This document shows, piece after piece, positions 27,542-52,250 of a stretch of DNA of 64,000 bases. Every line of letters starts with the position of its first letter. The first letter of the stretch is position 1. The stretch comes from Malachius bipustulatus (taxonomy: Eukaryota; Arthropoda; Insecta; Coleoptera; Melyridae). The stretch is taken from NCBI GenBank assembly GCA_910589415.1, contig OU342630.1, positions 80,348,186 to 80,412,185 of the forward strand. The letters run 5' to 3'. The notes under the pieces were generated by a model. That model made no database searches and was not told the origin of the DNA. It saw only the letters and a list, made by a program, of their open reading frames with translations. Both the position numbers and the translations under genes were made by a program.

Positions 27542-28484
27542 CAGTGGCGTCTATGAGTCGGAAAACACCCGAATTTTTTCAGACGCAACTTCTCCCCCCC
27601 CCCCCCCCCCCCCGTTCGTTTTCGAGGATGCTGAACACGATGGTGTGGGGGCATTTCTTTTTCGGGTTGCGTTCACCTTCTATTGGCCAAAAACCACTCC
27701 CTTTCTTAAAATCTCAGTTCTAATGCCCCCGGGTCGGAAAAAAACGCGTGCAACTCGCTTCTGGGGATGCATTGCATCTAATGACAACTGCCCGTCACCC
27801 TACGCCCACCTCCTTGGCCAAGAACCACCCTCTCCAAGGCGGTTGAAAATGTGTTTTTTTATTAATCGGGAAACCTGCCGCATCCTCCCGTTTTCAAGGG
27901 TGCTGAACACAATGGCCACTACCTTCGACCTCTACCACCCGTTTTTATTCCCCCAAATCGAGGAAACACCCTCCAGGGGGGTTGAAAATCGTGTTCAGCA
28001 CCCTTGAAAACGGGGGTATGCGGCAGGTTGCCCAATTAATAAAAAACACATTTTAAACCCTCTTGGAGGGTGTTTTCCTCGATTTGGGGGGATGAAAACG
28101 GGTGGTAGAGGTCTAAGCTAGTGACCATCGTTTTCAGCACCGTTGAGAACGGGGTATAATGTAGAAATATTCAGGATTATAAGAAAAAACATTTTCAACC
28201 CTCTTGGTGGGTAGTTCTTGACCAAGGGGGTGGTCTTAGCGTGACGGAAGTTGTCACGAGTTGCACGCGTTTTTTCCGACCCGGGGGCATTAGAACGAAG
28301 ATTTAAAAAAGGGGGGTTATTTTTGACAAATAAGGGGGTGAACGCAACCCGAAAAAGAAATTTGCCCTACGCCATCGTGTTCAGCACCCTCGAAAACGCG
28401 GGGGGGGGGGGGGGAGGACGTGGTTTCGTTGCGTCTGAAAAAATTCGGAAATTTCGGGTTTTTTCCGACTCATAGACGCCACTA
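27542..28484. mobile_element. 942-bp palindromic element (hAT-like CAGTGGCG ends) with mirrored poly-C and poly-G runs
   Basis: The ends CAGTGGCGTCTATGAGTCGG and its near-complement CCGACTCATAGACGCCACT bracket long inverted arms. Each arm has a homopolymer run at the mirrored place: about 20 C at 27594-27613 and about 14 G near 28400. Internal blocks such as TTTTCAAGGGTGCTGAACAC and CCTCCAAGG-like segments recur several times in both orientations, so the interior is itself a nested palindrome. CAGTGGCG is a common hAT terminus (family knowledge), but an 8-bp duplication is not evident. The 120-codon ORF at 27645-28007 is an arm by-product. Confidence 0.75.
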
Positions 28485-29688
28485 ATAAGCGCAAGCTTTA
28501 ATACGAGGGCCCTAGAAGTAATAATAATAATAAGGTTATAAGTATTAATAAGTGAGGAAATAAAAAATTTAGAATATCATCAGTACACCTTTTTTGTAAG
28601 AAAACTCCATGGAATTCATAGCTAAATGATTAGCTCTTGTAAGTCCATGAGCGTAGAGATTGTTGAGTGGAAAAGGGGTCATATACACTGTATCGACGCC
28701 ACTGATTAATTTTTTTACTCGTGTTTTTCTTCGTTTTGGGTGATCTAAATTATAATAAATAACCCCTTGGTATAAAATGAAAATATTGAGAAATGCCCAA
28801 GTTATGCGTACTTATAATTAAAATTATTCCGTGGCTGTATGAGCTAGATCTCGAGGCCAAAATTACCAGAATGGAGTTACTGGCGTCTTATATTTTTAAT
28901 TATTTTAATTTTAGTTATGAATCTTTTTTTAAAAACGTTCGCATAGCAGAAATTAATAGCAATTATTTACAAAACACTAACAACATCCTGTCATGGAACA
29001 TAATTATAGAGAAAAACCGTCTTTGTGAAGTTGAAAATGGATTGCTATATTCTTTCTGAAGCATGCGTGTAAATTAAATATTAAATATATGAACAAAAAT
29101 TATTAATAATAAAAAAGGTATTGATTCTGAAATCAATACGTGTGAGCCATTCTGCATACTAATTTTCCTGTGGAAAATAACAGAAGGCAAAATGGCACCG
29201 TTAAACATCGAACTAAAATTTGTCTACCTAACGTTACACGTTTATTAAATTTGGGAGTCATAAGTTTTTGTTTGTTACTGGTTTGGAAGCTCTATTAGCA
29301 GCATTTTAATATTTCACTTGAATATTATATTGTAATAAAATTTGAGTGAAAGGTGATATGGAGGTATACGTATAGCTTAGGTAATCAACGAAGATTAATG
29401 AGAAAGAAGCACTACATCCATCAGCGGAGGGTTATTTATTCATCAATCTTGTATGCGTCTTTATCTTTCGTCTTGATTTCACCGCAATGCTGGTTTTATT
29501 TTATTATTAGGTAATTTCATATTGATAGACGATAAAAAATTTTGCAGCAAAAATTTTTAAAGATTTTTATCTTTAGAGTAGGTAATTTTAATTTGGTCTT
29601 TTTATTTATAGTTAGGTGTAGGTAGAGAAATCCAAGCCTCTTACTATTTTCCTGTTTTAAGAGACATTTCTAGAATCCATCTAACTCT
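28485..29688. other. No recognisable gene
   Basis: AT-rich. GACGCCACTGATTAAT near 28695 resembles the right end of the preceding element and may be a relic terminus. An 88-codon ORF at 28793-29059 has no known motif. Confidence 0.35.
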
Positions 29689-29741
29689 TACGAAGGCGTA
29701 GATACGAAGGCGTAGAAGCGCCACACGAGTTTTATTTTTAA

Positions 29742-29965
29742 AATTCCGAGTTTAAACTCGGAATTCCGACTTTAAACTCGGAATTCCGACTTTAAACTCG
29801 GAATTCCGACTTTAAACTCGGAATTCCGACTTTGAACTCGGAATTCCGAGTTTAAACTCGGAATTCCGAGTTTAAAGTCGGAATTCTTAGTTTGAACTCG
29901 GAATTCCGAGTTTAAAGTCGGAATTCCGAGTTTAAAGTCGGAATTCCGAGATTAAACTCGGAATT
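29742..29965. repeat. Satellite array S1, 20-bp unit
   Basis: About 11 units of consensus GAATTCCGAGTTTAAACTCG. The unit merges two palindromes, CTCGGAATTCCGAG and GAGTTTAAACTC. Variants with GACTTT dominate the left half and variants with AAAGTC the right half, so the array switches polarity in the middle. Confidence 0.95.
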
Positions 29966-30398
29966 AGGGGCGGGCCTAGCAGGTGTGCTATGATTGGCCC
30001 GCACGCAGGCGGCAAGTTCATAGGGGCTGCGGGCGGAAGTAAAAATCCGATCATAAATCATAACAATAACAAAAAGTATCAAAATATCATGATAGACTTA
30101 GTTATTACAGTGTAGCACAAACATTGCCTTCATAGTATTAAGTTCTGAATCCATACTGCACTAAATTTTTAATCCATCGATAGTCACTGGCTTGTTCCCC
30201 GGCATTATAGCCATCCTATGTATTTTCTTATGAAAAAGGGCGGATAATTTTCAGTCGTCCTTGCGGACGCCGAATATCTTAGGATGGCTCTGGCCGGGGA
30301 ACAACCCGATTCAGCTTGTTTTATAATAAAAGTTTATAACGAAGGCTTTGACCATATTGAGACTAGATGTTGGCTCTAACGTAACTCCATTCAACTCT
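29966..30398 (+). repeat. Arm module U, copy 1
   Basis: A ~433-bp segment beginning AGGGGCGGGCCTAGCAGG. It is nearly identical to U3 (37332-37764) and, inverted, to U2 (36355-36787) and U4 (39168-39600). It contains the GC-rich start with a GATTGGCCCGC motif and an internal two-stem hairpin at 30192-30304. Confidence 0.9.
30192..30304. repeat. Structured hairpin inside module U
   Basis: TTGTTCCCCGGC pairs with GCCGGGGAACAA, and inside it AGCCATCCTA pairs with TAGGATGGCT; a mini-hairpin GTCC-TTGC-GGAC sits in the apical part. The same structure recurs in the other three U copies, U2 carrying one base change in the outer stem. Confidence 0.8.
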
Positions 30399-31657
30399 AC
30401 AGGGTGTTTCACCAGCAGACCGACATAGCTTAGGTAGGTATTATAAGTTTTTCAAGTCGATTCGGGATCTGGTATTGAAATTATTCTTAGACCCTTCCAT
30501 CGGATGGAATTTAATGAAATTTCGTAGATATGCTCTGCTAATGACACCTAATACCTCGCATTTTCTTCGATTCGAAAACTGCAGGACCGTACTTAATTTT
30601 TCAGGTCTCTATCGGTTTTCTTAAAAAGTTCACCCTGTATTATGCATTTTCTTCAAAGTTTAGTACCATTTTCTACATGAAAATTGCTACAATTGCGGTA
30701 AAAAATTACTTTGCACTATTAAACTGAATTGAGAAGAAAATGAAAAATTTTTAGTTTTTTCAGAATTTCAATTTATGGTTGTTACTAATTTTCGAAAACC
30801 CAAATGTGATTTTTTTAAACTTATGTATTTTGTTGCTATTTCGAATAAATTTGCTTGATCTACAGATTTAGCCAAGATTAGGAACCACTCTAGATTTTTT
30901 CGAGCTAACAATAAGTTTTAATAAGAAAAACAGGTAAAAGAAGAAATGGTAATTTTGCTGATAACCCATAACAACACATAAGCGTTTAAAAAATACAATT
31001 TTAGCACATAAACAAATAAGCGAAACAGAAAGAAAAATATCAAAAAAGTATGGTGGCCTGTTTGAACATTATCTGCACTGAATTGCAGTTTTTCTTCCCA
31101 AAATTTGTGTTGATATTTTTCGTTCTGTTTCGCTTATGTACTTATTTGTTTATGTGTTAATGTGCTAAATTGTGTTACTTATACGCTTATATGTTTGTTT
31201 GTCATTAAAATTACCATATCTTCGTTCAGTTGGTGTTCTTATTAAAACTTGAGTTTTTTCTTGTTAAAACTTATTTTTAGCTCTAAAAAAATCTATAACT
31301 TTCACTAATCTTGGCTAAATCTGCAGATCAAGCAAGTTTATTTGAAATAACTACAAAATGTTTATGGAAGTTTTAAGAAATAACATTTGGTTTTTCGAAA
31401 ATGCATTAACAAACATGCATTGAAATGCTGAAAAATCTAAAAGTTTTTATTTTGCTCTCGATTCAGTGTAATGGTGCCAGTAATTATTTTTACCGCAATT
31501 GTAGCATTTTTAATGTCGTTTTAGAAAATGGTTTAAAGTAAACTTTGAAAAAATACATGCAGGGTGAACTTTTTGACAAAACCGATAGAGACCTAAAAAA
31601 TTAACTACGGCCCTGCAGTTTTCGAATCGACGAAAAATGCGAGGTATTAAGTATCAT

Positions 31658-33159
31658 GTATCAAAAAAAAAAGTGGGGACTCAACTCTCATAGCCAATTA
31701 TAGACCCATCTCAATCTTGAATAACTTCGCCAAGATATTTGAGATGTCGTTGTACTCTCGCATCTATCCTGTGATCTCTCAGTCAGTTTCTCCCTGCCAA
31801 CATGGTTTTATGGAAGGGCGGTCTACAGTCACTAACCTGGCTTGCTTCACGCAATTTGTGTATGATGCTTTAGATGGTCAGGCGCAGGTGGATGTAGTTT
31901 ACACCGACTTTTCGAAGGCGTTTGATCGGATCGATCATGAAGTTCTGTTGAGGAAACTGGAACGGTTTGGGTTTACTTCGCGGCTGCTGTCGTTCTTCAC
32001 TTCATATTTGTCTAACAGACAGCAACGTGTCCTATACAATGGTCATATCTCGGATACTTTCTCACCCACTTCTGGTGTACCCCAGGGGTCAAACTTGGGG
32101 CCGCTACTTTTCTTGATTTTTATTAATGACATTACCGATGTCATTAGATCTGATAAGCTGCTCTTTGCAGACGATCTCAAAATTTTTTCTGTGATCACTG
32201 ATGTGGATGATGCTCGGATGTTGCAAAATGATGTTGAACGGTTGCATCAGTGGTGTGGGCACAACAATCTTTATATGAATGTGCAGAAATGCAGGGTGGT
32301 CTCCTATACAAGGAAAAAGAAAGGCTTAATCTTTGATTACAGTTTCGGATCCGTTCCCTTCATACGTACAAATTCTATAAAAGATCTTGGTGTTATTTTT
32401 GATATTAGTCTGTCTTTCTCTGAGCATGTTGCATATATTACCAAATCGGCTGTAAGAATGCTTGGTTTCATAAACAGAAGCTGCAGCGACTTTGACAGCA
32501 TACATTCGTTAAAGATACTATATTTTTCATACGTTAGGTCGAAGGTGGAATACTGCAGTGTGGTTTGGTCGCCCTATTACTACTGTCAGATTGCTCAGCT
32601 AGAACGAGTGCAGAGGAGGTTTTTGAGACAGCTCAATTTTAAAGAGTGTGGGAGGTATCTCCCCAGGGGATTTGATTATAACCTGATACTAGATCAATAT
32701 GATCTGCATTTGCTTCAGAAACGTCGTGGACTCGCAGCTGTCAGGTTTTTGTACTGCCTCTTTCATGATCGGATTGACTGCTCCCCATTGTTGTCGCTTT
32801 TTAATTTCCATGTGCCACGTCTTAACTCGCGTAATGAAAAAACCTTTGCCTTACGAGTGGCTAAAACCAATGTACTGTTGAGATCGCCTGTATATTTTAT
32901 GTCGGCCTGTATCAACAAAATATCTAGAAATTGTGATTTTAATGCGGATAGTTTGCCTACTGTTTTGGCTGTGTCCATCCGAAGCCTCTAATCTTGGGTT
33001 GTTGTTCACCGTGTATGCACTGTACTTTTTTTTTGTCTTTATTTTGTTCACACAATTGTTGTACTTATTATTGATTGTTATTGTGTTTATATAAAATTGT
33101 CCTGTAATTGGATCATGTATCTGTTGGGCAATAAATGTTATTATTATTATTATTATTAT
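31658..33159 (+). mobile_element. 5'-truncated Jockey/CR1-like LINE inserted in foldback A
   Basis: The foldback sequence stops at ...GTATCAT (31651-31657) and resumes after a (TTA)n tail with ATCATTAGCAGAGC (33161 onward), giving a duplication of about 5-6 bp (ATCAT/TATCAT). Between them is an RT-bearing ORF, a 3' UTR and an A/T-rich (TTA)n microsatellite tail of the kind used by many non-LTR elements. The 5' end is truncated within the RT region, as is usual in target-primed reverse transcription. Confidence 0.85.
31663..32991 (+). CDS. Reverse transcriptase C-terminal part of a LINE ORF2 (N-terminally truncated, otherwise open)
   Basis: The frame is open from the insertion junction to a TAA at 32989-32991, over 424 codons from the TTG at 31717; there is no authentic start because the element is truncated. 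Motifs in order: ANYRPISILNNFAKIFE, QHGFMEGRSTVTNLACF, VYTDFSKAFDRIDH (RT motif A, catalytic Asp), SGVPQGSNLGPLLFLIFIND (motif B), LLFADDLKIF (motif C, catalytic DD), then DLGVIFDISLSFSEH and the conserved LERVQRRFLRQL thumb/connection region. The endonuclease domain and RT N-terminus are missing. No frameshift or stop within 1.3 kb indicates a recent insertion. It would encode a non-functional fragment because EN is lost. Confidence 0.92.
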   Translation, partial: KKKSGDSTLIANYRPISILNNFAKIFEMSLYSRIYPVISQSVSPCQHGFMEGRSTVTNLACFTQFVYDALDGQAQVDVVYTDFSKAFDRIDHEVLLRKLERFGFTSRLLSFFTSYLSNRQQRVLYNGHISDTFSPTSGVPQGSNLGPLLFLIFINDITDVIRSDKLLFADDLKIFSVITDVDDARMLQNDVERLHQWCGHNNLYMNVQKCRVVSYTRKKKGLIFDYSFGSVPFIRTNSIKDLGVIFDISLSFSEHVAYITKSAVRMLGFINRSCSDFDSIHSLKILYFSYVRSKVEYCSVVWSPYYYCQIAQLERVQRRFLRQLNFKECGRYLPRGFDYNLILDQYDLHLLQKRRGLAAVRFLYCLFHDRIDCSPLLSLFNFHVPRLNSRNEKTFALRVAKTNVLLRSPVYFMSACINKISRNCDFNADSLPTVLAVSIRSL

Positions 33160-33373
33160 TATCATTAGCAGAGCATATCTACCAAATTTCCATAAATTCT
33201 ATCAATTCGTTCAAAAGATACTGCTCATCAAAAATTTCGGCAAAATGCATGAATCACCCTGTAACATCGAAACGAAGGGCGTCAGAAAAATTTCAAAACC
33301 AGATCCCGAATCATTATCTTGAAAACCTACACCAACCCTTAAGCTATGTCGGTCTGCTGGTGAAACACCCTAT

Positions 33374-33687
33374 ACATATATTGTCCGGTAACGCTAAAAT
33401 CTACCAGTATGAATGTTGTTATTGCTTAGTGTGATTAACATTTTCGCACTTGTTTTTTCAAAATAATTTCTCGAACCCCCCTGATTTTCGGGGGATATAT
33501 TTCGCACCAATAAGCGAAATAAGCGGTGCAGCAGAACTTACCTAATCTAAAATAACGTTTCTATTGGTGTTTAATTTTTACCTACAAAAAATTGGTTTTT
33601 GCCCTCCCATTGGTAGACATTTCTTCTTAAGAGGGGGGCGAGGGGCGGCAATTTTTGTATCGCCACGTAGACGGCAAATAGGCTAGG
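33374..33687. other. Unique spacer with clustered CCAAT/ATTGG motifs
   Basis: Not found in the other modules. It carries CCAAT at 33507 and ATTGG at 33563, 33591 and 33609, and a C-run/G-run pair (ACCCCCCTGATTTTCGGGGG). It has no ORF. It could be the original sequence between two separate foldback insertions or a specific promoter-like part of the composite. Confidence 0.4.
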
Positions 33688-33716
33688 CTCCGAGTTTAAA
33701 CTCGGAATTCCGAGTT
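33688..33716. repeat. Satellite scrap (about 1.5 units of the 20-bp repeat)
   Basis: CTCCGAGTTTAAACTCGG then AATTCCGAGTT, fused directly to the interior of foldback B. The fusion implies a deletion that removed most of a satellite array, a U module and the outer ~410 bp of foldback B's left arm. Confidence 0.8.
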
Positions 33717-36354
33717 AATGTTATTTCTTAAAACTTGCATAAATATTTTGTAGTTATTTCAAATAAACTTGCTTGATCTGCAGATTTAGCCAAGATTAGA
33801 GAAAGTTATAGATTTTTTTAGAGCTAAAAATAAGTTTTAACAAGAAAAAACTCAAGTTTTAATAAGAACACCAACTGAACGAAGATATGGTAATTTTAAT
33901 GACAAACAAACATATAAGCGTATAAGTAACACAATTTAGCACATTAACACATAAACAAATAAGTACATAACAGAGACAACATACTATAAAGAGACCGTCA
34001 GATCGACGCACGAAAATGGGTACACTGTTCACGCGCATTCCGGTAGCGCATCGCGCATTGCGGACGATTTCTAAACTAAAATGAAGCTGCCTTTAGATAT
34101 AAATTCTCATTTTGACATAATCTGACGTTTAGTTTTGCAATTGTGTAAAATTTGATTTATTTAATTTGAGTATTTTATCAAACTAATAATAAATTTTAGA
34201 TGAACTTTACCTTGAATATAATTTTTAGAAATATAATTTATAATAATTTACCCAATTAATAACAGTATAACGTAAAACTTTCGCATATTTGTTGACTTTT
34301 GAAAGGTAAGTGCAAGCAATGCCGTTTCATGCTCTTGCAGGTAATAACAATTATTTTAAATAAATCGAAAAAACTCTTCCTGAATGCGAAATAATTGTTT
34401 TAGGAACCACATTCTATCTGCGTCTTGGTTTAAAAGCAGTTCTAATCACAACGATGGATCATTTTATCAAAGTTATGAATACAACACCCAATAAAAACTG
34501 CATTAAAACACTACCTATTACTTAGAAGGTAGATGAAGTAGATGAACGAATACAAATCTTTTGAGATGCTGAGATTCTGAGGTGATGCTGCGGTGTGTGT
34601 TATCTTCTCTGTTTATACTTATTTAGTTTGGTACATTACTATTGGGCATTTTATTATGTAAAGAAGTTCACGTGGCCCTCTTCGGAGCTGGAAACCTCAA
34701 ATAATGGGCCGCTTATTTGTTGCCCGAAAAACTCTGAAAAAATTCAGGCATATTCTTTGATAAAAATAATTATTTTTTGTTTCTTGGAGTTTCTCTACTA
34801 AAAGTCTTCCTTCTCAGTAAAATCATCAAATGAAGGTCTATGCATTATTTGTCTAGTATGAAGAAAAAGTTTGATTATTTTTGTCTAAAGAATATGCGTA
34901 AATTTTTTCGTAATTTTTGAGAATAAGAGGGCTAATCCTCTGTAGAAGGATAAATCGCCTTCTGACTCTTGAAGTTTTTCTTTAAAACGTCTGCTGCTTC
35001 ACTGGAAACTAATTATTAATCAAAAAAATTTAGTTTTTTGTAATTTTTTTCAGATAGATCCTTTTTCGACTTCCCTTTTGAAGAGGACTCAGTTACGTGA
35101 CCTACCACTTCGGTGGATCGTAGCAATAGGTATACACATCTTAACCAAGCGACGGCGTCTGCGGTGCACGATCCAGCAGATGATGGCTGCAATGCCTTTT
35201 ATGTTAAAATTATTAACAACAATATTATTATTATAATTTTATTTTCCTGGAAAAGTCTTTCCACGTTGAGAAAACTGGTTAAATAGAAGCATCTTCTGTA
35301 AAAACTGGACCTGTATTTATGTGAAGAAAATTTTGTGGGAAGCATTTGTTACAATTATTAATATACTCGTATATATTGTGCATCTATTAAGAATAAAGAA
35401 GTTTTATATTGATGCCTCAAAGTTTATTTGTTGAAGTGGCGACACTTCAACCGTAAAAATAATGTTTCAAATAATAATTAGGTATAAATTATAATTTGAA
35501 TGTCCCGCGCTTACCAATAATATCTCCGGTAGCCCAGGTAGTCGCCACCGTCGCAGGTTACCTAGAGTCTAACGTGTAATCGAACACTCTATTATATTAT
35601 CTTTCTCTATGGTACATAAGCGAAACAGAAAGAAAAATATCAACACCAATTTTGGGAAGAAAAACTGCAATTCAGTGCAGATAATGTTCAAACAGGCCAC
35701 CATACTTTTTTGATATTTTTCTTTCTGTTTCGCTTATTTGTTTATGTGCTAAAATTGTATTTTTAAACGCTTATGTGTTGTTATGGGTTATCAGCAAAAT
35801 TACCATTTCTTCTTTTACCTGTTTTTCTTATTAAAACTTATTGTTAGCTCGAAAAAATCTAGAGTGGTTCCTAATCTTGGCTAAATCTGTAGATCAAGCA
35901 AATTTATTCGAAATAGCAACAAAATACATAAGTTTAAAAAAATCACATTTGGGTTTTCGAAAATTAGTAACAACCATAAATTGAAATTCTGAAAAAACTA
36001 AAAATTTTTCATTTTCTTCTCAATTCAGTTTAATAGTGCAAAGTAATTTTTTACCGCAATTGTAGCAATTTTCATGTAGAAAATGGTACTAAACTTTGAA
36101 GAAAATGCATAATACAGGGTGAACTTTTTAAGAAAACCGATAGAGACCTGAAAAATTAAGTACGGTCCTGCAGTTTTCGAATCGAAGAAAAATGCGAGGT
36201 ATTAGGTGTCATTAGCAGAGCATATCTACGAAATTTCATTAAATTCCATCCGATGGAAGGGTCTAAGAATAATTTCAATACCAGATCCCGAATCGACTTG
36301 AAAAACTTATAATACCTACCTAAGCTATGTCGGTCTGCTGGTGAAACACCCTGT
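33717..36354. mobile_element. Inner foldback copy B (left-truncated, interrupted by a hAT-like element)
   Basis: 33717-33970 matches 38182-38436 of copy C, and 35612-36354 matches the remainder of copy C up to the terminal CTGCTGGTGAAACACCCTGT. The intervening 1.64 kb is a separate insertion. Confidence 0.88.
33971..35611. mobile_element. 1,641-bp non-autonomous hAT-like element with perfect 8-bp TSD
   Basis: GTACATAA stands at 33963-33970 and again at 35612-35619, exactly bordering the insertion; copy C has a single GTACATAA at the empty site. The ends are CAGAGACAAC and, in complement, CATAGAGAAA, 7 of 9 matching. An 8-bp duplication with CAGAGA-like ends is the hallmark of hAT transposons such as Hermes (family knowledge). 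The longest ORF is 68 codons, so it cannot encode transposase. Confidence 0.88.
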
Positions 36355-36787
36355 AGAGTTGAATGGAGTTACGTTAGAGCCAACATCTAGTCTCAATATG
36401 GTCAAAGCCTTCGTTATAAACTTTTATTATAAAACAAGCTGAATCGGGTTGTTCCCCGGCCAGAGCCATCCTAAGATATTCGGCGTCCGCAAGGACGACT
36501 GAAAATTATCCGCCCTTTTTCATAAGAAAATACATAGGATGGCTATAATGCCGGAGAACAAGCCAGTGACTATCGATGGATTAAAAATTTAGTGCAGTAT
36601 GGATTCAGAACTTAATACTATGAAGGCAATGTTTGTGCTACACTGTAATAACTAAGTCTATTATGATATTTTGATACTTTTTGTTATTGTTATGATTTAT
36701 GATCGGATTTTTACTTCCGCCCGCAGCCCCTATGAACTTGCCGCCTGCGTGCGGGCCAATCATAGCACACCTGCTAGGCCCGCCCCT
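36355..36787 (-). repeat. Arm module U, copy 2 (inverted)
   Basis: Inverted copy of module U. Against U4 I see single-base differences such as GCCGGAGAAC for GCCGGGGAAC near 36552 and TTATGAT for TCATGAT near 36661; otherwise the two look identical. Confidence 0.9.
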
Positions 36788-37331
36788 AATTCCGAGTTTA
36801 ATCTCGGAATTCCGAGTTTAATTTCGGAATTCCGACTTTAATCTCGGAATTCCGACTTTAATCTCGGAATTCCGAGTTTAATCTCGGAATTCCGACTTTA
36901 AACTCGGAATTCCGACTTTAAACTCGGAATTCCGAGTTCAAACTAAGAATTCCGACTTTAAACTCGGAATTCCGAGTTTAAACTCGGAATTCCGAGTTCA
37001 AAGTCGGAATTCCGAGTTTAAAGTCGGAATTCCGAGTTCAAAGTCGGAATTCCGACTTTGAACTCGGAATTCCGACTTTGAACTCGGAATTCCGACTTTA
37101 AACTCGGAATTCCGACTTTGAACTCGGAATTCCGAGTTTAAACTCGGAATTCCGAGTTTAAAGTCGGAATTCTTAGTTTGAACTCGGAATTCCGAGTTTA
37201 AAGTCGGAATTCCGAGTTTAAAGTCGGAATTCCGAGATTAAACTCGGAATTCCGAGATTAAAGTCGGAATTCCGAGATTAAAGTCGGAATTCCGAGATTA
37301 AACTCGGAATTCCGAGATTAAACTCGGAATT
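36788..37331. repeat. Satellite array S2, ~27 units of 20 bp
   Basis: The longest satellite block, sitting exactly between two divergent U modules. It starts with TTTAATCTCGG-type units, passes through GACTTTAAACTC types, reverses polarity near the centre and ends with GAGATTAAACTC units, the inverse of its start. The whole block is therefore a large imperfect palindrome. Confidence 0.95.
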
Positions 37332-37764
37332 AGGGGCGGGCCTAGCAGGTGTGCTATGATTGGCCCGCACGCAGGCGGCAAGTTCATAGGGGCTGCGGGC
37401 GGAAGTAAAAATCCGATCATAAATCATAACAATAACAAAAAGTATCAAAATATCATGATAGACTTAGTTATTACAGTGTAGCACAAACATTGCCTTCATA
37501 GTATTAAGTTCTGAATCCATACTGCACTAAATTTTTAATCCATCGATAGTCACTGGCTTGTTCCCCGGCATTATAGCCATCCTATGTATTTTCTTATGAA
37601 AAAGGGCGGATAATTTTCAGTCGTCCTTGCGGACGCCGAATATCTTAGGATGGCTCTGGCCGGGGAACAACCCGATTCAGCTTGTTTTATAATAAAAGTT
37701 TATAACGAAGGCTTTGACCATATTGAGACTAGATGTTGGCTCTAACGTAACTCCATTCAACTCT
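37332..37764 (+). repeat. Arm module U, copy 3
   Basis: Direct repeat of U1 with no difference noticed by eye, followed directly by the intact foldback C. Confidence 0.9.
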
Positions 37765-39167
37765 ACAGGGTGTTTCACCAGCAGACCGACATAGCTTAGG
37801 TAGGTATTATAAGTTTTTCAAGTCGATTCGGGATCTGGTATTGAAATTATTCTTAGACCCTTCCATCGGATGGAATTTAATGAAATTTGGTAGATATGCT
37901 CTGCTAATGACACCTAATACCTCGCATTTTTCTTCGATTCGAAAACTGCAGGGCCGTAGTTAATTTTTTAGGTCTCTATCGGTTTTGTCAAAAAGTTCAC
38001 CCTGCATGTATTTTTTCAAAGTTTACTTTAAACCATTTTCTAAAACGACATTAAAAATGCTACAATTGCGGTAAAAATAATTACTGGCACCATTACACTG
38101 AATCGAGAGCAAAATAAAAACTTTTAGATTTTTCAGCATTTCAATGCATGTTTGTTAATGCATTTTCGAAAAATCAAATGTTATTTCTTAAAACTTCCAT
38201 AAACATTTTGTAGTTATTTCAAATAAACTTGCTTGATCTGCAGATTTACCCAAGATTAGAGAAAGTTATAGATTTTTTTAGAGCTAAAAATAACTTTTAA
38301 CAAGAAAAAAACTCAAGTTTTAATAAGAACACCAACTGAACGAAGATATGGTAATTTTAATGACAAACAAACATATAAGCGTATAAGTAACACAATTTAG
38401 CACATTAACACATAAACAAATAAGTACATAAGCGAAACAGAAAGAAAAATATCAACACAAATTTTGGGAAGAAAAACTGCAATTCAGTGCAGATAATGTT
38501 CAAACAGGCCACCATACTTTTTTGATATTTTTCTTTCTGTTTCGCTTATTTGTTTATGTGCTAAAATTGTATTTTTTAAACGCTTATGTGTTGTTATGGG
38601 TTATCAGCAAAATTACCATTTCTTCTTTTACCTGTTTTTCTTATTAAAACTTATTGTTAGCTCGAAAAAATCTAGAGTGGTTCCTAATCTTGGCTAAATC
38701 TGTAGATCAAGCAAATTTATTCGAAATAGCAACAAAATACATAAGTTTAAAAAAATCACATTTGGGTTTTCGAAAATTAGTAACAACCATAAATTGAAAT
38801 TCTGAAAAAACTAAAAATTTTTCATTTTCTTCTCAATTCAGTTTAATAGTGCAAAGTAATTTTTTACCGCAATTGTAGCAATTTTCATGTAGAAAATGGT
38901 ACTAAACTTTGAAGAAAATGCATAATACAGGGTGAACTTTTTAAGAAAACCGATAGAGACCTGAAAAATTAAGTACGGTCCTGCAGTTTTCGAATCGAAG
39001 AAAAATGCGAGGTATTAGGTGTCATTAGCAGAGCATATCTACGAAATTTCATTAAATTCCATCCGATGGAAGGGTCTAAGAATAATTTCAATACCAGATC
39101 CCGAATCGACTTGAAAAACTTATAATACCTACCTAAGCTATGTCGGTCTGCTGGTGAAACACCCTGT
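37765..39167. mobile_element. Inner foldback copy C (intact, 1,403 bp)
   Basis: Begins ACAGGGTGTTTCACCAGCAG and ends with its inverse. The arms meet around 38485 near the sequence ATAATGTTCAAACAGGCC, where the two sides stop pairing. The two arms are distinguishable (for example ATTTTCGAAAAATCAAATG against TTTGGGTTTTCGAAAATTAG), so they have diverged from each other, yet each matches its counterpart in copies A and B closely. The U modules continue the palindrome on either side. Confidence 0.88.
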
Positions 39168-39600
39168 AGAGTTGAATGGAGTTACGTTAGAGCCAACATC
39201 TAGTCTCAATATGGTCAAAGCCTTCGTTATAAACTTTTATTATAAAACAAGCTGAATCGGGTTGTTCCCCGGCCAGAGCCATCCTAAGATATTCGGCGTC
39301 CGCAAGGACGACTGAAAATTATCCGCCCTTTTTCATAAGAAAATACATAGGATGGCTATAATGCCGGGGAACAAGCCAGTGACTATCGATGGATTAAAAA
39401 TTTAGTGCAGTATGGATTCAGAACTTAATACTATGAAGGCAATGTTTGTGCTACACTGTAATAACTAAGTCTATCATGATATTTTGATACTTTTTGTTAT
39501 TGTTATGATTTATGATCGGATTTTTACTTCCGCCCGCAGCCCCTATGAACTTGCCGCCTGCGTGCGGGCCAATCATAGCACACCTGCTAGGCCCGCCCCT
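39168..39600 (-). repeat. Arm module U, copy 4 (inverted)
   Basis: Inverse of U3 on the other side of foldback C; it carries the same two-stem hairpin. Confidence 0.9.
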
Positions 39601-39964
39601 AATTCCGAGTTTAATCTCGGAATTCCGAGTTTAATTTCGGAATTCCGACTTTAATCTCGGAATTCCGACTTTAATCTCGGAATTCCGAGTTTAATCTCGG
39701 AATTCCGACTTTAAACTCGGAATTCCGACTTTAAACTCGGAATTCCGAGTTCAAACTAAGAATTCCGACTTTAAACTCGGAATTCCGAGTTTAAACTCGG
39801 AATTCCGAGTTCAAAGTCGGAATTCCGAGTTTAAAGTCGGAATTCCGAGTTCAAAGTCGGAATTCCGAGTTCAAAGTCGGAATTCCGAGTTTAAAGTCGG
39901 AATTCCGAGTTTAAAGTCGGAATTCCGAGTTTAAAGTCGGAATTCCGAGTTTAAACTCGGAATT
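39601..39964. repeat. Satellite array S3, ~18 units of 20 bp
   Basis: The left part repeats the beginning of S2 nearly base for base, then units of the AAAGTC type follow. It ends at GGAATTTTAAAAATAAAACT, the inverse of the start of S1. Confidence 0.95.
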
Positions 39965-40003
39965 TTAAAAATAAAACTCGTGTGGCGCTTCTACGCCTTC
40001 GTA

Positions 40004-41026
40004 AACTCTAACTTATCTCTTTCTTTTATTTATAATGACAATGAGTATGTTTATAAGAATGCTGGGATTAGTGACGGTGTATAATAAAATAAGTAACTCA
40101 ATGGTCTTTCTCACACTTAAGTCAGTTACTGTCACCAGCAAAACTTATTGCTTCCTTATTCGACTGTCATCATAACTCTCATACGGTGTTTGATATTGCA
40201 AACTGACGAGACTTAATAATGGCGAATCTGCGATGTTTTTGTCTTCAAACGATCGGAGGGATTTATTTATTTTATTCGAAATATTCGGAAGACTCTAGAG
40301 AAAACTTATCATGTGACCCTCTGTATAAATCATATAAAAGTATATCGTTATTATTTATTTTTAAAAATAAAAATGCCCTTATCCACATACTTATAATGTC
40401 GTTTTTTTAAAGCTGGTTCTTAATTTGACGAGAACATCGCAAGTAACGAACCAGTCCTAAAAATAACGTTTGAAAATAAACCATTTTCAAGTTGTTATCT
40501 TACTACAACAATCAATATTATTTTTAAAGCGCGTGAAATGTGAAAAGCTCTACATGTTTTGATTCTCATCTATTTTTAGAGTTTACTTATATCGATTTAG
40601 AAATGTCTAGTATCAGTTTCTATAAATTGTTTTCGAAAACATTCGAATTTTTAATATTAATATTGCATGATTGTTAAACTTGTAAAATTGTCAAATTCGG
40701 GATAATAAAAAATTAAAATTGCAATACAAATTAATATTGCAATGCAATATAAACCTGCAAAAACGTCAATGTCAACAATGATGACATTTCTGCTTTAGAA
40801 TAATGAGCATGTGATTATAATCCAATCAGAACTAAATAATGTTTTTTATTTTAATCGATTTAGATATTATTTAAAATAAACAAAGAAATATTAATAGCAA
40901 TAAGGAAAATTTAGCAATGGAAGTGTGTTTTTTTCATACTTATTACTTTTTTGTGCGATTGAATTTGATCAATCAAAGAAAAAAAGTTCCTATGAACATA
41001 GGTCCGCAAATGTACCGTTTTCGTTA
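40004..41026. other. No recognisable gene
   Basis: AT-rich flank of the composite element. Starts with the right AACTCT duplication. Short ORFs at 40219 and 40917 carry no motif. Confidence 0.4.
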
Positions 41027-43012: not shown

Positions 43013-45990
43013 GTATAGAATAGAATAGAATAGAATAGAATAGAATAGTTTATTTAGTGTCTTGAATGTACAATATTCTTACACGCGTCCATATACATAA
43101 CCACCTAACTACGTTAATTTTTCCATGACAAAAAATTTATAACCGTTCAGAAATCGACATGCCGCTGTTCCAGGTATTCATCTATACTGTAACAAGCTTT
43201 AGAAATTAAATATAATTTTAGTCTGTTGGCAAATATCGAAATCTGAAGATCCTTACAGTCTTCAGATAGTTTGTTGAAGAACTTTATGCCATAAAATCTT
43301 GCACCAGTGACAGATGATGCAAGTCGATGACTTTCTATTCCTAAATCATGCTTAAATCTAGTGGCATATGGATGGGCTGCGTTATCATGGAAACAGTGAG
43401 GATTTTTTCGTACATAACACAAACACTGATATATAAACATTGAAGGCAGGGTCAATATCTTCAGTTCTGTGAAAGAAGGCCTGCAGTCATCCCTGTATCC
43501 CAACCCAGCAACAATCCTGACCGCCCTCCGCTGCAATCTAAAGATGTGATGCCGAATATTGAGGTGTCCCCAAACTATGAGTGCATAGTTCAGATGGGAC
43601 TGAAACAGAGCATGAAAAGCCATCAGAAGTGTGGGTGTAGACACTGTGGCTTTCAAATTGCGAAGAACGAATATGGCCGAGCATAACCTCTTGCACACCA
43701 TCTCTCCATGAGTCCTAAATCTCAGCTTATTATCGATGTGTAAACCTAGATATTTAACCTGATTACAGTAGTCCTCCAGATTCGCAGAGTTTGTAGGACG
43801 CGTTGTAAAGAGCATAGATGCTGACTTATCAACATTGAGCTGGAGTCCATTAGAAATGAACCAACAATTTACAGACTCAACAGCTCTAACTCCATCTCTA
43901 ATAGTGGCGTCCAAATCATGGTCAGAGTTCAAAATCGTTGTATCGTCAGCAAAGAGAACAGAGGCAGAGGACGAAGAAGAAGACGCATTCATGTATTCAG
44001 GAAGGTCGTTTATAAAAATCAGGAATAATAGTGGTCCCAAGACTGAACCTTGAGGCACACCCCTGTTGACAGGTAGAAATGGAGAATTCTGATTATTCAA
44101 CCTTACTGTCTGCTCCCTCTGGGTCAGGAACGATGTAAGAAGTCTTATGCTAACTGGGTGCAGATTATACAGATACAGCTTACGTATCAGAGTAACGTGA
44201 TCAACGCAATCGAACGCTTTGCTCAAATCAAGAAAATTAACGTGTGTAAATTTTCCGTTCTCGAAATTATTCAGAATGTGATCTATCATCTCAATCACAG
44301 CATTAACTGTGCCGCGACCCCTGCGAAAACCGAACTGACTACTCGTGAAATAATTTGATAGTTCGAAATATTTTGTCAATTGATGTTTCAAAATTCGTTC
44401 TAATATCTTGGAAAAAACGGAAAGAATTGCGATAGGTCTAAAATTTCCGGGGTCGTCGGTTGACCCTTTTTTATGAATTGGGATGACCACAGCCCTCTTC
44501 AAGACATTAGGAAAAACGCCCTCTCTGATGCTTTGATTAATTAATTTCGTAAGAGGCAAGATAATTATATCTTTAATATATTTTATGATGTTAACACTGA
44601 GACCATCCACATCCATCACATTACCTGACTTAAGGCTATCAATAGTATCTCTAACTACAATACAAGACACCTCATCAAATTTAAAGTATTCCGCATTTGA
44701 AGGAATACATTTACTGGATTCACACATCATTGTTATAGGATCAACATTCGAATTGGGTAATTCATTCGCAATTTTATCCGCAATGCTGGCAAAATATGAA
44801 TTGAAATTACTAGGAGATAAGACATAGCTTTTGTCACAGTTACTGTTTCTACGTGTTCGACCCTCATTTATAATCTGCCAGGATGATTTTACTGGATTCC
44901 GAGCTGATCTGAGAAAGTTATCATTAGCAGCTAATTTTGCATTTTTTATAGCCTGTCTGTAATGTCCCCTTAGCTTATTTTTGGTAGCCAGATGACATCC
45001 CAAACCGGTTTGCTTAAACAGATCATCGAATAACAAGATCAAATTTCTCAACCTTCTCAGATCGCTATTGAACCATCTGAGTCTATTGTTACGTTTATGA
45101 GTCAGTACGGTCTTACTAGGAAAATACTCTGCACAGCCAGCAGATATGGCTCGAATAAACTCGCTGAACTTATAATTCACGCCTTCATCCGCTGAACATA
45201 TATAATTCCAATCAATGCACTCTAAAAATCTATACAGTTGACATTTCCCAACGGGAGTAATCGGTCGAATAATTTTTCTAACGACAGTAGCAGTATGGTG
45301 TTCATTAGTTGAAAACTGAATTTGAAAGCCCCTGTGGTCTGAGAATCCCGTTTTAACAGGATCTGCAAAAACTGACCCTTCGTTGAAATTACTGAAGGCG
45401 TTGTCTAGACAATTATCTCCACGTGTGGGGAAGTCAACGTGCTTTTTTAGGCCATAGCCAGTCATAAAATCGCAAAGGTATGTAGCCTTTGCATCGTCAT
45501 TACCAAATCTTACATTAAAATCGCCACAGACAATCACATAATGTTTCATAAAATCTAACGAACCAAATATTCCAGACATAATATCAAAAAACACATTAAA
45601 ATCACCTGTAGGTGGACGATAGACTGATATAACATACACATTTATGTGAGATATAAAAATTGAACAAACTTCACAGTCTCCTTCCAGTGATCTCGATGAA
45701 CAGTTCAAAGGATCCGCAACCATAGCCCTTACATCATTATGCACACAGATCATAGAGCCACCACACCTTTGAACACAGCGTGAAAAATGCGATGCAACAG
45801 CATAGTTATTAAAGGACAAACTGACCATTTCGCTGTCAGTTAGCCAGTGTTCCACAATACAGAGAACTAAAAATCTATTCCTATGTTGATCAAGTAGTAT
45901 ATCGACTTCGTCCACTATATTTCGAATCGACTGTACATTTGCACATAACAACGAAAGAGACCTGTTGTATAAAATTGTAGGCTACTTTTT
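43013..45990 (-). mobile_element. Nearly complete Jockey-group LINE
   Basis: Comprises the ORF2 at 43147-45951 (open to a TAG near 45990), a short 3' UTR, and a tail of (TATTC)n on the minus strand, seen as TAGAA repeats at 43016-43046. There is no ORF1. The 5' end sits at about 45990-46010, directly against the long-TIR element at 46011. Target-site duplications were not resolved. Confidence 0.85.
43147..45951 (-). CDS. LINE ORF2: APE-type endonuclease plus reverse transcriptase, 934 codons
   Basis: Uninterrupted. Endonuclease domain (about residues 1-230): LCANVQSIRN at the N-terminus, a catalytic-Glu block around VEHWLTDSE, VYRPPTGDFN, a VIVCGDFNVRFG block and the final SDHRGFQIQF (Ser-Asp-His). 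RT domain (about 470-760): FRPIAILSVFSKILERIL, FGFRRGRGTVNAVIEM, LDLSKAFDCVDH (motif A), RGVPQGSVLGPLLFLIFIND (motif B), SVLFADDTTIL (motif C catalytic DD), then YLGLHIDNKLRF. A C-terminal LQRRAVRIVAGLGYRDDCRP block and FNKLSED complete it. No RNase H and no C-terminal zinc knuckle is seen. The annotated start is a TTG; the frame stays open about 13 codons upstream without an ATG, so the true start is lost or the first residues were truncated. The lack of stops suggests a recent, possibly active-lineage copy. Confidence 0.93.
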   Translation of the reverse strand: MLCANVQSIRNIVDEVDILLDQHRNRFLVLCIVEHWLTDSEMVSLSFNNYAVASHFSRCVQRCGGSMICVHNDVRAMVADPLNCSSRSLEGDCEVCSIFISHINVYVISVYRPPTGDFNVFFDIMSGIFGSLDFMKHYVIVCGDFNVRFGNDDAKATYLCDFMTGYGLKKHVDFPTRGDNCLDNAFSNFNEGSVFADPVKTGFSDHRGFQIQFSTNEHHTATVVRKIIRPITPVGKCQLYRFLECIDWNYICSADEGVNYKFSEFIRAISAGCAEYFPSKTVLTHKRNNRLRWFNSDLRRLRNLILLFDDLFKQTGLGCHLATKNKLRGHYRQAIKNAKLAANDNFLRSARNPVKSSWQIINEGRTRRNSNCDKSYVLSPSNFNSYFASIADKIANELPNSNVDPITMMCESSKCIPSNAEYFKFDEVSCIVVRDTIDSLKSGNVMDVDGLSVNIIKYIKDIIILPLTKLINQSIREGVFPNVLKRAVVIPIHKKGSTDDPGNFRPIAILSVFSKILERILKHQLTKYFELSNYFTSSQFGFRRGRGTVNAVIEMIDHILNNFENGKFTHVNFLDLSKAFDCVDHVTLIRKLYLYNLHPVSIRLLTSFLTQREQTVRLNNQNSPFLPVNRGVPQGSVLGPLLFLIFINDLPEYMNASSSSSSASVLFADDTTILNSDHDLDATIRDGVRAVESVNCWFISNGLQLNVDKSASMLFTTRPTNSANLEDYCNQVKYLGLHIDNKLRFRTHGEMVCKRLCSAIFVLRNLKATVSTPTLLMAFHALFQSHLNYALIVWGHLNIRHHIFRLQRRAVRIVAGLGYRDDCRPSFTELKILTLPSMFIYQCLCYVRKNPHCFHDNAAHPYATRFKHDLGIESHRLASSVTGARFYGIKFFNKLSEDCKDLQISIFANRLKLYLISKACYSIDEYLEQRHVDF

Positions 45991-48285: not shown

Positions 48286-49111
48286 TGCAGCGTGCCTTGC
48301 ACGCTACGTTTTCTTTTTCAAAATTTTAATTCTCGATTTGGAATATTTTTATAAAGTTCAGAAAAGTTATGATTGACTGTACATTTTCGCTGATGTAAGA
48401 GGCTGTATTAGGCAAAGATCACGAACGAACACCTGACAGCTATTAAGAAATCCTTGCTTTTGTTATTTGAGTAAGACGTAGAAAACATGTCTAGTCGATT
48501 TTCTGTCCCGGTTCTGGGTTTTCAGAGTTTGAAAAGTATATCATCTTATGCGAATTAATTTTCCGCGTCTAATGAGACCACTCTCATCTTGCTACTCAAG
48601 ATTTCCGATTAGTTATCCAGATAAAACCTAAAAGATTATTTCTTTGGGTGTGGGTTAAAAAAACATGAAACGATAGTTGAGGAAACATATAAAAAAAACT
48701 TGCGTTTTGTTCTGGGACACGACAAGCCTCGAGTATAAGCGGATTCACGATTGTGAAATTTAAGTTTGGATATAGGGAGAACGGGAGAGGTTGATCGTAC
48801 TGCCGATGGTGTACTAGAGTATATGAGAATCGATCCGTCAATGTCGCGTGCGAGTTTTAAGTGTTGCATACTGTCGATGATGATATTTGGAGTGAAAGTG
48901 GGTCACCAAGTTCGGTTGGACAGTGGTTAAGGCGCATGCGATAGCGTCATCCCCAAAAAATTATAAAGGGAGGTAAAGGACGCTTCAGGTTCATTTTCCG
49001 GTCTAAATTCGACAGGTCATGTAGCTTGTCTACAAGTTCGTAAATTAGTATTAGTCCCTTGTGTGAGACGTTATTATGGTGAAGTTGTTTCCGTGAAAGA
49101 TGCAGTCTTAC

Positions 49112-49175
49112 GTGAGTAATCTTTTGAATTTAATTTTGGTCATCATAACTAATGTTCGCTTTCTTGTCTTTACAG
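49112..49175 (+). other. Putative 64-nt leader intron within the LTR
   Basis: GTGAGTAAT donor, CTAAT branch-like motif at about 49149 and a TTTCTTGTCTTTACAG acceptor: all three signals sit within a span typical of short insect introns. The same sequence occurs in the 3' LTR at 56663-56726. It lies downstream of the candidate TATA box. Confidence 0.45.
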
Positions 49176-49221
49176 ACAAGGGACGTGGTTTTGGACTTAC
49201 GTACTACTAGATTAGGTTTTG

Positions 49222-49300
49222 GAACGTAGTCTTGGACGTAGTCTTGGACGTAGTCTTGGACGTAGTCTTGGACGTAGTTTTGGGACGTGGGTTTGGACGT
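49222..49300. repeat. 12-bp minisatellite GTAGTCTTGGAC
   Basis: Four or five tandem copies of GTAGTCTTGGAC grading into GTAGTTTTG variants; present identically in the 3' LTR at about 56773-56851. The minus-strand ORF over it (repeated QDYV) is a by-product. Confidence 0.9.
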
Positions 49301-51063
49301 AGTTTTGAATGTAGTTTTGAACTTTAGTTTTGATTTACTTTTGAGTTTCAAGTTCTAGAATGTTAGGTCCCGACTTCCAGTTTTGATTTTTAACTACTAA
49401 TTTCCGATTTCCAGTTTTTAATTTCGATCTTTGAATTTCTAAGTTTTAACTTTTGATTCCTGAATTTTAATTTCGAACTTCTAGTTTCTGAGTTTTGAGT
49501 TCCAACTTTCAATTTTCTAATTTACACGAAAGTTTACATAAAGATTCGATCATGTGGAGGCTTATGTAGGTACCTACCTAGGTAGGTATACTAACCTGTG
49601 TGAAGGGTGATGTTTGAAGAAGCTTGGAGAAATAAAGAAGAGTGGTGGAGTTTAGTTTGTAGACATGGAAGGTTTCATCAGGCAGAGGTCCTAGTACGTT
49701 GATATTTGGTCATCACAAGGTAGCAGGGAGAGCAGTCCAGCTCATCCGGCACCTAGAGCATCCACCAAGGGGTGCTAACACCAGTGCAAAGGCAGTTCCA
49801 GCAACCATGCCGGTCTAGTCTTTGATCATCGCGCTTAGGTTAGAGGAACCTTAGTTCGTCAGTTTTGAGATGGAGTTTTGAAGAATAAGGTATGTCTTTA
49901 TGAGTGAATAAACTTTTGCTATTTTCCGATAATCAAGAAAATTAAATAAATTCAAGTACAGTGTTTAATTGATTTCATCACCTATGACTTTCTAAGTGAA
50001 TTTGATTTTTGATAATATGTTATGAACTTTTATTGTGGTCAACAAGTGACTAATGTAATGGTTATGTGTAAAAATAATTTATTAAATTTATCGTATGTGT
50101 TTAGGATTTCGAGTTGGAGATGATCATTTTCTAAATTAAATTTTGAATTTCAGATTTTGTAGGTAGATACCTGTTTTTATATTGAAACTTTTGCTTAAGA
50201 TAAATTTAAATTTTTGAGAAATAATCTCTGATCTAACTCCGAGTTCTATTCAGAATCATACCTATGTGTTATAGTTTAGAAATTGTTTAATAGAATTTGA
50301 GCTTTGGAAATTTTTATCTGAACTATTGAAATGATATAGGTACCTATCTTGAATTTTAATCATGTAAGTTTGATATCATTGGTAATAAGGTAATATTTAT
50401 GTTTGAATATTTGAGTCAGGATTACTGATTTTAATTATTAAATTGATTGTTGATATGTAAGATCTATTGGTGATTGCCAGTCTATTGTACTGATGATGAA
50501 ATTGATTTTAATAAATCTTTGTATTAAAATTCAACAATTTTAGAGTTTTGAGAATCAACCCTCCTCATGTTCTTTTAAATTATTTATTCAATCAGTAGAG
50601 TAACATCAAGAATAAGGCGATATATCCTGGTATATTTTGGTGAGGTTTATTAATTTTTGGTTATTGTTTTTAAAATTGTTAGGAGTTACTACGGGTCCAG
50701 TCTGGTTCGGTGAATGCTGGATTTTCCAGAGGAAGGCCACATTTATCTGTCCCGGGCTGGATAATCACAACGAATCTTTTGTTTAAGTTTGGTTTTGGTT
50801 TGATACTTTGGAAAATTTAGACGATCACTTTTCAAAATTTAAAGTTTATTTTTGTTTCGACATTTAGAATATTTGGGTGGGGCATTCCAAATTTGATATG
50901 TTCCACTCGACAGGCCAATGTGGCTAATGTTACAAATTTGCCCAGTCACATTGAGATCTGTCAATAGCCACCTCCTTCCTTTCGGGGTTAAGGTAAGTGA
51001 ATTATTATCTTTTTTATTGTTCAACTTTTTGAGTGGGAGTAAGCGAGGGGGAGGAAGGCTCCA

Positions 51064-51697: not shown

Positions 51698-51785
51698 AAT
51701 TTTGAGTTAGGGTTCTTTTTCGTCCTTTTCCGCCCTGCACCGTCTAAAGCGAAAACTGACAGTCCTTTTTTTTTATAGCAACATC

Positions 51786-52250
51786 ATGAGCTTATTCTTT
51801 TTTGGTTTTTGGACCTCGGACAGGTGTATATCGTGTGTACCAGTGAATGGTAGTTTTTATAAGGATGTTGATTATAGTTCTTTTGACCCAGTCGATTTCT
51901 CCAATCGACTTAAATGGCAGTCCGAAGTGAGCAAAGTTCCTAAACTTTATCCCAAAATCCAAGAGAAAATTAGAAAATCTTTTGAGAAAAATGTTAAGAG
52001 ATATAACCTTCGTAGGCGAGAAGTTAATTATCAGGAAGGTGATAAAGTGTGGAAGAAAAACTTCGTTCTTTCCAAAGCGGTCGATAAGTTTTCTAAGAAA
52101 TTAGCTCCGAAATATGTCCCGGCTATGATAAAGAAAATTAAAGGTACTGGTAAGGTTGTTGTTCTTTCAGATCTGTCAGGAAAAATCCTGGGAGATTTTC
52201 ACGTAAGTGATATTAAACCATTTGTTGAGATCCAGAATAGCCAGTGTTAG
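51786..52250 (+). pseudogene. Integrase C-terminal segment of a Gypsy-type Pol
   Basis: A 154-codon frame. From about residue 40 on it carries FSNRLKWQSEVSKVPKLYPK, a NVKRYNLRRREVNYQEGDKV stretch (the YxxRRRxVxYxxGDxVW block that follows the integrase core), FSKKLAPKYVPAMIKKIKG (chromo/GPY-F-like region, LAPKYxGPxxI) and GDFHVSDIKPF, the typical end of Gypsy Pol. Zinc-binding and DDE domains, RT, RNase H and protease are absent; the first ~35 residues look unrelated and mark the deletion junction. It cannot integrate anything on its own, so the copy needed enzymes in trans. Confidence 0.8.

Follow-up and report, generated by a model that had tools for sequence, protein, structure and literature searches.

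The window, the whole 64,000-nucleotide stretch of DNA analysed here, holds a stretch of 10,315 bp (29,689–40,003) with inverted ends and AACTCT on either side. It raises the question of how an element of this size and symmetry was built, and whether it moved as one unit. The earlier note took it for a single insertion of a composite foldback element. Our analysis showed that the element is real, young, non-autonomous and multimeric. Its reading as one unit with foldback architecture, bounded by 6-bp duplications, was upheld. However, it is not a one-off composite, being among the largest members of a family whose copies read here range from 162 bp (L043, satellite-only) to 10.36 kb (L013). 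We consider it likely that it is a trimeric non-autonomous TIR transposon, which grew stepwise and moves as one unit with an IS3EU/GingerRoot-type enzyme acting in trans.

Structure of the Element

The inverted ends and their AACTCT flanks (29,683–29,688 and 40,004–40,009) are present where they had been claimed, and the same holds for the arms, which are filled with satellite, and for the palindromes at several scales. The basic unit of the family is about 2.6 kb long, in the order TIR, palindromic 20-bp satellite, V, inner foldback (IF), U, satellite, TIR. Three modules occur in the window element, which is therefore a trimer. On its left side, an extra 14-bp copy of the terminus (TACGAAGGCGTAGA; 29,689–29,702, + strand), absent from most other copies compared at their ends, precedes the left terminal inverted repeat (TACGAAGGCGTAGAAGCGCCACACGAGTTTTATTTTTAA; 29,703–29,741, +) and a satellite array of 11.2 units (29,742–29,965). 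Module 1 continues with a U segment that holds the GTTCCCCGGC...GCCGGGGAAC hairpin (29,966–30,540, +) and with an IF whose arms are about 74% alike (30,541–31,657, −). The inner foldback is probably a separate, older MITE nested in the basic unit.

The earlier note described a module that is once complete and once broken. We found three modules instead, and the supposedly broken part consists of two head-to-head modules split by a LINE fragment (31,661–33,161, +), with a 446-aa reverse-transcriptase frame, and by a hAT-like non-autonomous insert (33,971–35,611, +). Between them lie u′, a diverged remnant of U matched in two pieces (33,166–33,374, −); V, the other subterminal flank of the basic unit (33,371–33,692, +); a satellite remnant (33,690–33,716) at the head-to-head dimer junction of V, satellite and IF; and the first part of the IF of module 2, which starts at IF position 271 (33,717–33,978, +). 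The second part of this IF (35,612–36,212, +) and the U of module 2 (36,213–36,787, −) follow the insert. A central satellite array (36,788–37,331) leads into module 3, which is composed of U (37,332–37,906, +), with 100% identity to the U of L022 and L030, an IF (37,907–39,025, +) and a right U arm (39,026–39,600, −). The right satellite array of 18.2 units (39,601–39,964) and the right terminal inverted repeat (39,965–40,003, −) complete the element. The arms at 29,742–31,657 and 37,907–39,824 are 98.2% identical in inverted order, and the U arms of the window are 99.5–100% identical to one another.

The hAT-like insert has the 8-bp duplication GTACATAA on both sides (33,963–33,970 and 35,612–35,619). 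It contains no frame of at least 120 aa and hence no hAT transposase, so that it is at most a non-autonomous hAT derivative; its label follows features that we take to be those of hAT elements. Neither this insert nor the LINE fragment figured in the earlier note. In the open-frame list of the whole window element there is no transposase frame, as had been claimed, and the sole frame of at least 120 aa is the LINE reverse transcriptase. Rfam gave no match at gathering thresholds.

Ends and Target-Site Duplications across the Genome

We searched the host assembly (544 Mb) with the first 18 bp of the terminal inverted repeat and found 244 exact copies, against none for the reversed control. The end with GGAATT 25–50 bases downstream had 190 matches, at least one end being counted twice. 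About the first 100 places were listed for each of these searches and for one further genome search; 40 of 515 matches were listed in another and all 90 in yet another. A contig found by the pattern GGCGTAGAAGCGCCACACG (L001) was rejected as a chance match, an isolated 19-mer among letters that are phage-like by eye.

Duplications were counted in 23 paired elements, namely that of the window and those of 21 of the 29 loci L010–L038 (two elements in L023). The count omits L011, L012, L024, L028, L029, L032 and L038, with no second end in the fetched stretch, and L037, a nested palindrome whose two flanks are identical. Few flanking bases were fetched for L046 and L047, neither of which was counted, and L047 has an altered right end. 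The 6-bp duplications of other terminus copies had been set beforehand as the test of the single-insertion reading, which withstood it: the duplication is exact in 19 of the 23 elements, and no match arose in 2000 shuffles that mispaired the flanks. Four elements (L022, which holds the LINE fragment, L025, L033 and L036) have no duplication of at least 5 bp, and none has one of another length of at least 5 bp. Among the small elements, a 6-bp duplication was found in five of six. The paired elements start with TACGAAGG and end with CCTTCGTA, that is, they have TA..TA termini, in a sample chosen for its likeness to the left end of the window element. This selection over-represents young copies and intact TA ends, and exceptions would escape it.

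Family Forms and Probable Stepwise Growth

Monomers, dimers, dimers with the LINE fragment, dimers that also carry the hAT-like insert, and trimers were recognised at separate loci. The basic 2.6-kb form is present in L010, L017, L021, L023a, L023b and L036. With forms running from the 162-bp satellite-only element up to the 10.4-kb trimer in a single assembly, the stages by which a foldback element grew can be put in order. The 100-bp dimer junction aligned over its full length in 10 of the 55 stretches searched. The left junction of the LINE fragment is identical in 8 places and the right junction of the hAT-like insert occurs in 4, and in both cases the host flanks differ at the listed ends. 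Both hAT-like junctions are shared by the window, L014 and L024, and the right one also by L019; an additional right-junction match in L023 with 5 errors was treated as chance. The non-autonomous element appears to have carried the LINE fragment to new sites. An older interior class was seen in L050, L054, L055, L056, L059 and L060; it had 43 genome matches, several of them close inverted pairs 0.4–2.5 kb apart (40 of 135 matches listed).

A second trimer (L013 with L039) is 10,363 bp long and is flanked by the duplication AAAGTG. Its third module has 95–96% identity to that of the window and groups with older monomers. Trimers were seen at these two places only, and since their third modules differ, the joining probably happened twice.

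These forms suggest a stepwise history. It would begin with a 2.6-kb monomer that had satellite arms and contained a nested MITE, and two monomers would then fuse head to head with loss of the intervening ends. The LINE would have inserted into this dimer and the hAT-like element afterwards, and a third module would have been added via the satellite arrays. Each shared junction would have a single origin. A transposase supplied in trans would recognise the outermost ends (TACGAAGGCGTAGAAGCG...) and make 6-bp staggered cuts, presumably in a cut-and-paste mode.

The Palindromic Satellite and Head-to-Head Joining

The array of the 20-mer AATTCCGAGTTTAAACTCGG is its own reverse complement, which holds for 55 of 200,000 shuffled 20-mers. 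A satellite array lies near both ends in 22 of the 23 elements and near the right end only in L020. The arm-pairing test covered the 8 elements in which exactly two U arms are complete, and excluded the window element and the third module of L013. Comparing the satellites unit by unit, we found that the central array of each trimer is a right-end array plus a left-end array, joined head to head, in which the TIR-proximal units are missing. The central array retains no TIR letters, which disfavours an origin by simple nested self-insertion.

The trimer may instead have been built in place. A dimer would have inserted with AACTCT and then gained a second element, either through an insertion in its satellite or through recombination with an excised copy. 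Array recombination would have removed the inner TIRs, and the outer duplication would be that of the dimer only. The central array without TIR letters, which yet keeps two array halves, is what array recombination would leave, and the trimer form is known from two places with unlike third modules. However, a single loss event per locus would not suffice for this course, the outer duplications match at both loci, and the dimer stage does seem, from its shared junctions, to have moved as a unit. We regard assembly in place as the less probable course, though one of some weight, and prefer transposition of the trimer as one unit.

Because the satellite unit is its own reverse complement, inverted arms are homologous both ways and head-to-head fusion would be possible; the unit could enable both inverted-arm recombination and joining. 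We suggest, tentatively, that the palindromic satellite may be a built-in joining zone, by which elements fuse head to head, shed their inner ends and move by their outer ends. If this is true, the transposon enlarges itself and gathers modules and cargo. The family connects transposition and head-to-head fusion with a short palindromic satellite, a link that can be tested.

Mobilising Enzyme and Remaining Alternatives

A full-length copy with an ORF, which the earlier note had proposed to seek, did not emerge, and no transposase-bearing copy was found among the copies read. The IS3-family profile NF033516 scored 78 of 2714 candidates, none above the cut-off, and 66 of the 78 matches lie in open frames of at least 600 aa, like LTR-retrotransposon polyproteins. 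No profile match was seen by eye within 12 kb of the listed 18-bp ends on parts of contigs C1–C3. The 4.1–4.3 kb candidates L046 and L047 contain the usual U, IF and V and no frame longer than 112 aa, and the open frames listed for the single-ended copies L011 and L029 revealed no autonomous copy.

Drosophila FB elements have tandem repeats in inverted arms and 9-bp duplications, and Polintons have AG..CT ends and 6-bp duplications. The window family shares the tandem repeats within inverted arms with the FB/Tetris/Mutator type, but the 8–10 bp duplications of that type occur in 0 of 23 pairs; the earlier remark that the duplication length is unlike that of FB holds. The 7–8 bp duplications of the Galileo/P type are absent from the 23 paired elements, and the TA..TA termini differ from the ends of Polintons, whose duplications are also 6 bp. 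It is unlikely that an enzyme of the Mutator/FB, P/Galileo or Polinton type mobilises the family: Tetris and Galileo also have tandem repeats in long inverted arms, but their duplications are 8–10 bp and 7 (rarely 8) bp, against exactly 6 bp in the 19 duplicated pairs (PMC4079207, PMC4168063; these and the other papers are cited from excerpts).

The earlier note had called the mobilising enzyme unknown. No copy encoding it was found, but the TA..TA ends and 6-bp duplications point to an IS3EU/GingerRoot-type enzyme (PMC10045372). As no transposase was found, membership is unproven. A mis-joining of satellite arrays and near-identical modules during assembly, which the close likeness of the U arms might favour, is very improbable, given a second trimer elsewhere, whose third module has diverged and which has a 6-bp duplication of its own, and contigs of up to 94 Mb that suggest a long-read assembly.

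Comparison with Known Systems

IS3EU/GingerRoot families, of which Styx is an example (PMC10853768), have TA..TA termini and target-site duplications of usually 6 bp (PMC10045372), as the window family does. They differ from it in that the excerpts of these two papers describe neither palindromic satellite arms nor multimers for them, and in that the window family has yielded no transposase. The superfamily occurs in beetles, since IS3EU elements are annotated in flour beetles, where the T. freemani assembly has more than 6000 more of them than T. castaneum (PMC9180572).

IS3EU sequence has also been tied to tandem repeats. In Tribolium, half of TCAST10 resembles IS3EU-1_TC, and inverted dimers occur among the TCAST repeats (PMC5844308); the oyster satellites CgiSat35 and CgiSat47 are IS3EU-related, with units of 690 and 129 bp (PMC8268682). 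Their units are longer, without a 20-bp palindrome, and the excerpts of both papers do not describe stepwise head-to-head multimers.

Galileo, of the P superfamily, resembles the window family in TIRs whose length changes via tandem-repeat expansion and recruitment of internal sequence, and in TE insertions in its arms (PMC4168063). It differs in its 7-bp duplications (8-bp in three copies) and in having a known putative transposase. Tetris of Drosophila virilis, for which its authors suggested Mutator, is likewise a non-autonomous foldback element with long TIRs, a variable count of internal tandem repeats and no autonomous partner found (PMC4079207). However, its repeat unit is about 220 bp and its duplications are 8–10 bp, compared with 20 bp and 6 bp in the window family.

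Terminal Ends and Target-Site Duplications

The earlier note had proposed that positions 29,689–40,003 form one insertion with inverted ends, and these ends were recovered: TACGAAGGCGTAGA... and its complement are present, flanked on both sides by AACTCT. We searched the host assembly (544 Mb, 52 contigs) and found the exact 18-bp end 244 times (117 + 127), against 0 for the reversed control. The end followed by GGAATT after 25–50 bases gave 190 matches genome-wide, at least one end being matched twice. The 29 loci examined surround the places most similar to the window's left end, and this sample is therefore biased toward close copies. An exact 6-bp target duplication was detected in 19 of the 23 elements with both ends available; the other four, in host stretches L022, L025, L033, and L036, showed no flanking duplication of at least 5 bp. 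Mispaired flanks, the control, gave 0 matches in 2000 shuffles. Five of six small elements (L040, L041, L043, L044, and L045) had the 6-bp duplication and one (L042) lacked it. Since such duplications accompany most copies in both sets, the objection raised beforehand, that other copies might lack them, fails.

At some ends, the outermost 14 bp (window 29689–29702, L010, L011, L012, and L025) or 8 bp (L013, L037, and L062) are repeated one or more additional times; these additional copies are situated within the 6-bp duplication in the window, L010, and L013.

Basic Unit and Inner Foldback

The basic element of about 2.6 kb has the order TIR–satellite–V–u′–IF–U–satellite–TIR, where TIR is the terminal inverted repeat, U and V are subterminal segments, u′ is a diverged U remnant, and IF is the inner foldback. 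It was found at L010, L017, L021, L036, and twice in L023 (L023a and L023b). The smallest forms, of 162–218 bp, are TIR–satellite–TIR alone (L040, L041, and L043). Separately, L037 (C4:18105850-18109050) is a nested palindrome with flanks identical in inverted order and further termini within V.

IF has ends of its own, CAGGGTGTTTCACCAGC, and the genome contains 140 occurrences of an 18-mer taken from these ends. By hand count, no exact element terminus lay within 12 kb of 20 of the 32 IF-end places on contig C1; some of these 20 may be inside copies with altered ends, as the IF-end place L049 adjoins U-like sequence. L048 is a 412-bp IF copy with TA flanks, whose flanking sequence, as far as obtained, matches neither U nor V. 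The two IF arms are only ~74% alike. IF is probably a separate palindromic MITE of older date that lies nested within the element.

Dimers, Cargo, and Trimers

The same 100-bp junction of V, satellite remnant, and IF position 271 was detected at 93–100% identity in 10 of 55 stretches: the window, L013, L014, L015, L018, L022, L024, L027, L028, and L030. The search covered the window and L010–L063, many of the last of which are too short to hold it. On our reading, the junction would mark a head-to-head dimer that lost the ends separating its halves, formed a single time, and later spread.

A LINE fragment of 1.5 kb (window 31661–33161), in which a reverse-transcriptase domain was recognized, occupies one site in eight places (the window, L013, L014, L018, L022, L024, L030, and, by its left junction only, L032), and the dimer occurs without it in L015, L027, and L028. 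Among the 120 listed of 7834 relatives of this reverse transcriptase, the few that bear an organism name come from Tribolium, Callosobruchus, and Photinus, which points to a beetle as the probable host. A hAT-like insert (window 33971–35611), with GTACATAA on each side, shares one site in the window, L014, and L024; its right junction is also in L019. The LINE-bearing elements of the window, L013, L014, L018, and L030 each have their own 6-bp duplication, and it is therefore most likely that the dimer took this cargo along to new sites; L022 carries the LINE without a 6-bp duplication. Within the hAT-like segment of L014 (2991–4206, minus strand) lies an insert whose open frames resemble, by eye, Tc1/mariner transposase.

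In the window, the dimer with LINE and hAT-like insert is followed by a third module, U–IF–U. L013 together with L039 forms a second trimer (10,363 bp, duplication AAAGTG), in which dimer and LINE precede U–IF–u′–V. The window's third-module U arms have 99.7–100% identity to their eight nearest copies, and the third-module U arm of L013 clusters with older monomers. When satellite units were coded as letters, the window's central array proved to be a fusion of a right-end with a left-end array that lacks the TIR-proximal units of each; no TIR letters are left in it. The central array of L013 is nearly the same in its left half and different in its right half. Because both the third modules and these right halves differ, modules were probably joined at least twice.

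Satellite Arrays and Inverted Arms

Tandem Repeats Finder reported three arrays of a 20-bp unit in the window element (11.2, 27.2, and 18.2 copies). The array is its own reverse complement, a property of 55 of 200,000 shuffled units. Arms 29742–31657 and 37907–39824 have 98.2% identity in inverted order. We compared the eight elements with two full U arms, no more and no fewer: an arm's closest relative was its partner, alone or in a tie, in 13 of 16 cases and another arm in three, and 0 of 10,000 random pairings were as close as the actual partners. This likeness agrees with one arm serving as template to repair the other, a process of which the symmetric U–IF–U modules (L016, L034, and the window's third module) would be the extreme case.

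Other Repeats in the Window

A 2778-bp direct repeat (48286–51063 and 55837–58614) is 100% identical; just right of its first copy, a retroelement-like frame seen by eye (51711–52247) had no Pfam match. The pair may represent the long LTRs of a young LTR retroelement, or else a duplication of recent origin. Another foldback (2406–3606) has 550-bp arms at 99% and ACAGGGTGTCCC near its left edge, and a 0.9-kb inverted repeat (27543–28483) is ~75% alike. An open frame of 944 aa (43150–45981, minus strand) matches reverse transcriptase and, slightly under the Pfam cut-off, an endonuclease, which identifies it as a LINE.

Proposed Mechanism of Mobilization and Joining

Elements with common outer ends are placed between 6-bp duplications, and we suggest cut-and-paste by an enzyme supplied from elsewhere. 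In an IS3 profile search of the genome for an encoding copy, all 78 scored matches (of 2714 candidates) fell under the cut-off; 66 of them lie within open frames of at least 600 aa, as expected of LTR retrotransposons. IS3EU families are described as invariably ending in TA..TA, with duplications that usually measure 6 bp (PMC10045372), and their relative Styx as having 6-bp duplications too (PMC10853768). By analogy, our family would work like an IS3EU element; because no transposase-encoding copy was found, we do not claim that it is one.

We propose that the palindromic unit serves as a joining zone between elements, because inverted arms built of an ordinary repeat share homology in just one orientation and those built of a palindromic unit in both. 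Alternatively, the joins may have arisen when elements fused end to end and the centre of the palindrome was then lost, and our data do not discriminate between this and the joining zone.

Six stretches (L050, L054, L055, L056, L059, and L060) hold a relative that is older: it shares the outer end, its satellite has decayed, and its interior differs and includes CTTCATGACGTCATAAAGT-like sequence. For this interior, no fewer than 43 matches were counted, several of them forming inverted pairs at close distance.

Comparison with Known Systems

We found no description of this element in the literature on foldbacks, IS3EU, GingerRoot, MITE dimers, and beetle satellites, covered partially, mainly through titles and abstracts and outside subscription journals and Repbase; this is no proof of novelty. 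According to PMC5844308, one half of the TCAST10 repeat of Tribolium is similar to IS3EU-1_TC, and inverted dimers occur among the TCAST repeats; PMC8268682 labels two oyster satellites IS3EU. An association of IS3EU with satellites has therefore been published before. In the portions of their descriptions consulted, Tetris and Galileo share with our element the tandem repeats in long arms, but both differ from it in duplication length.
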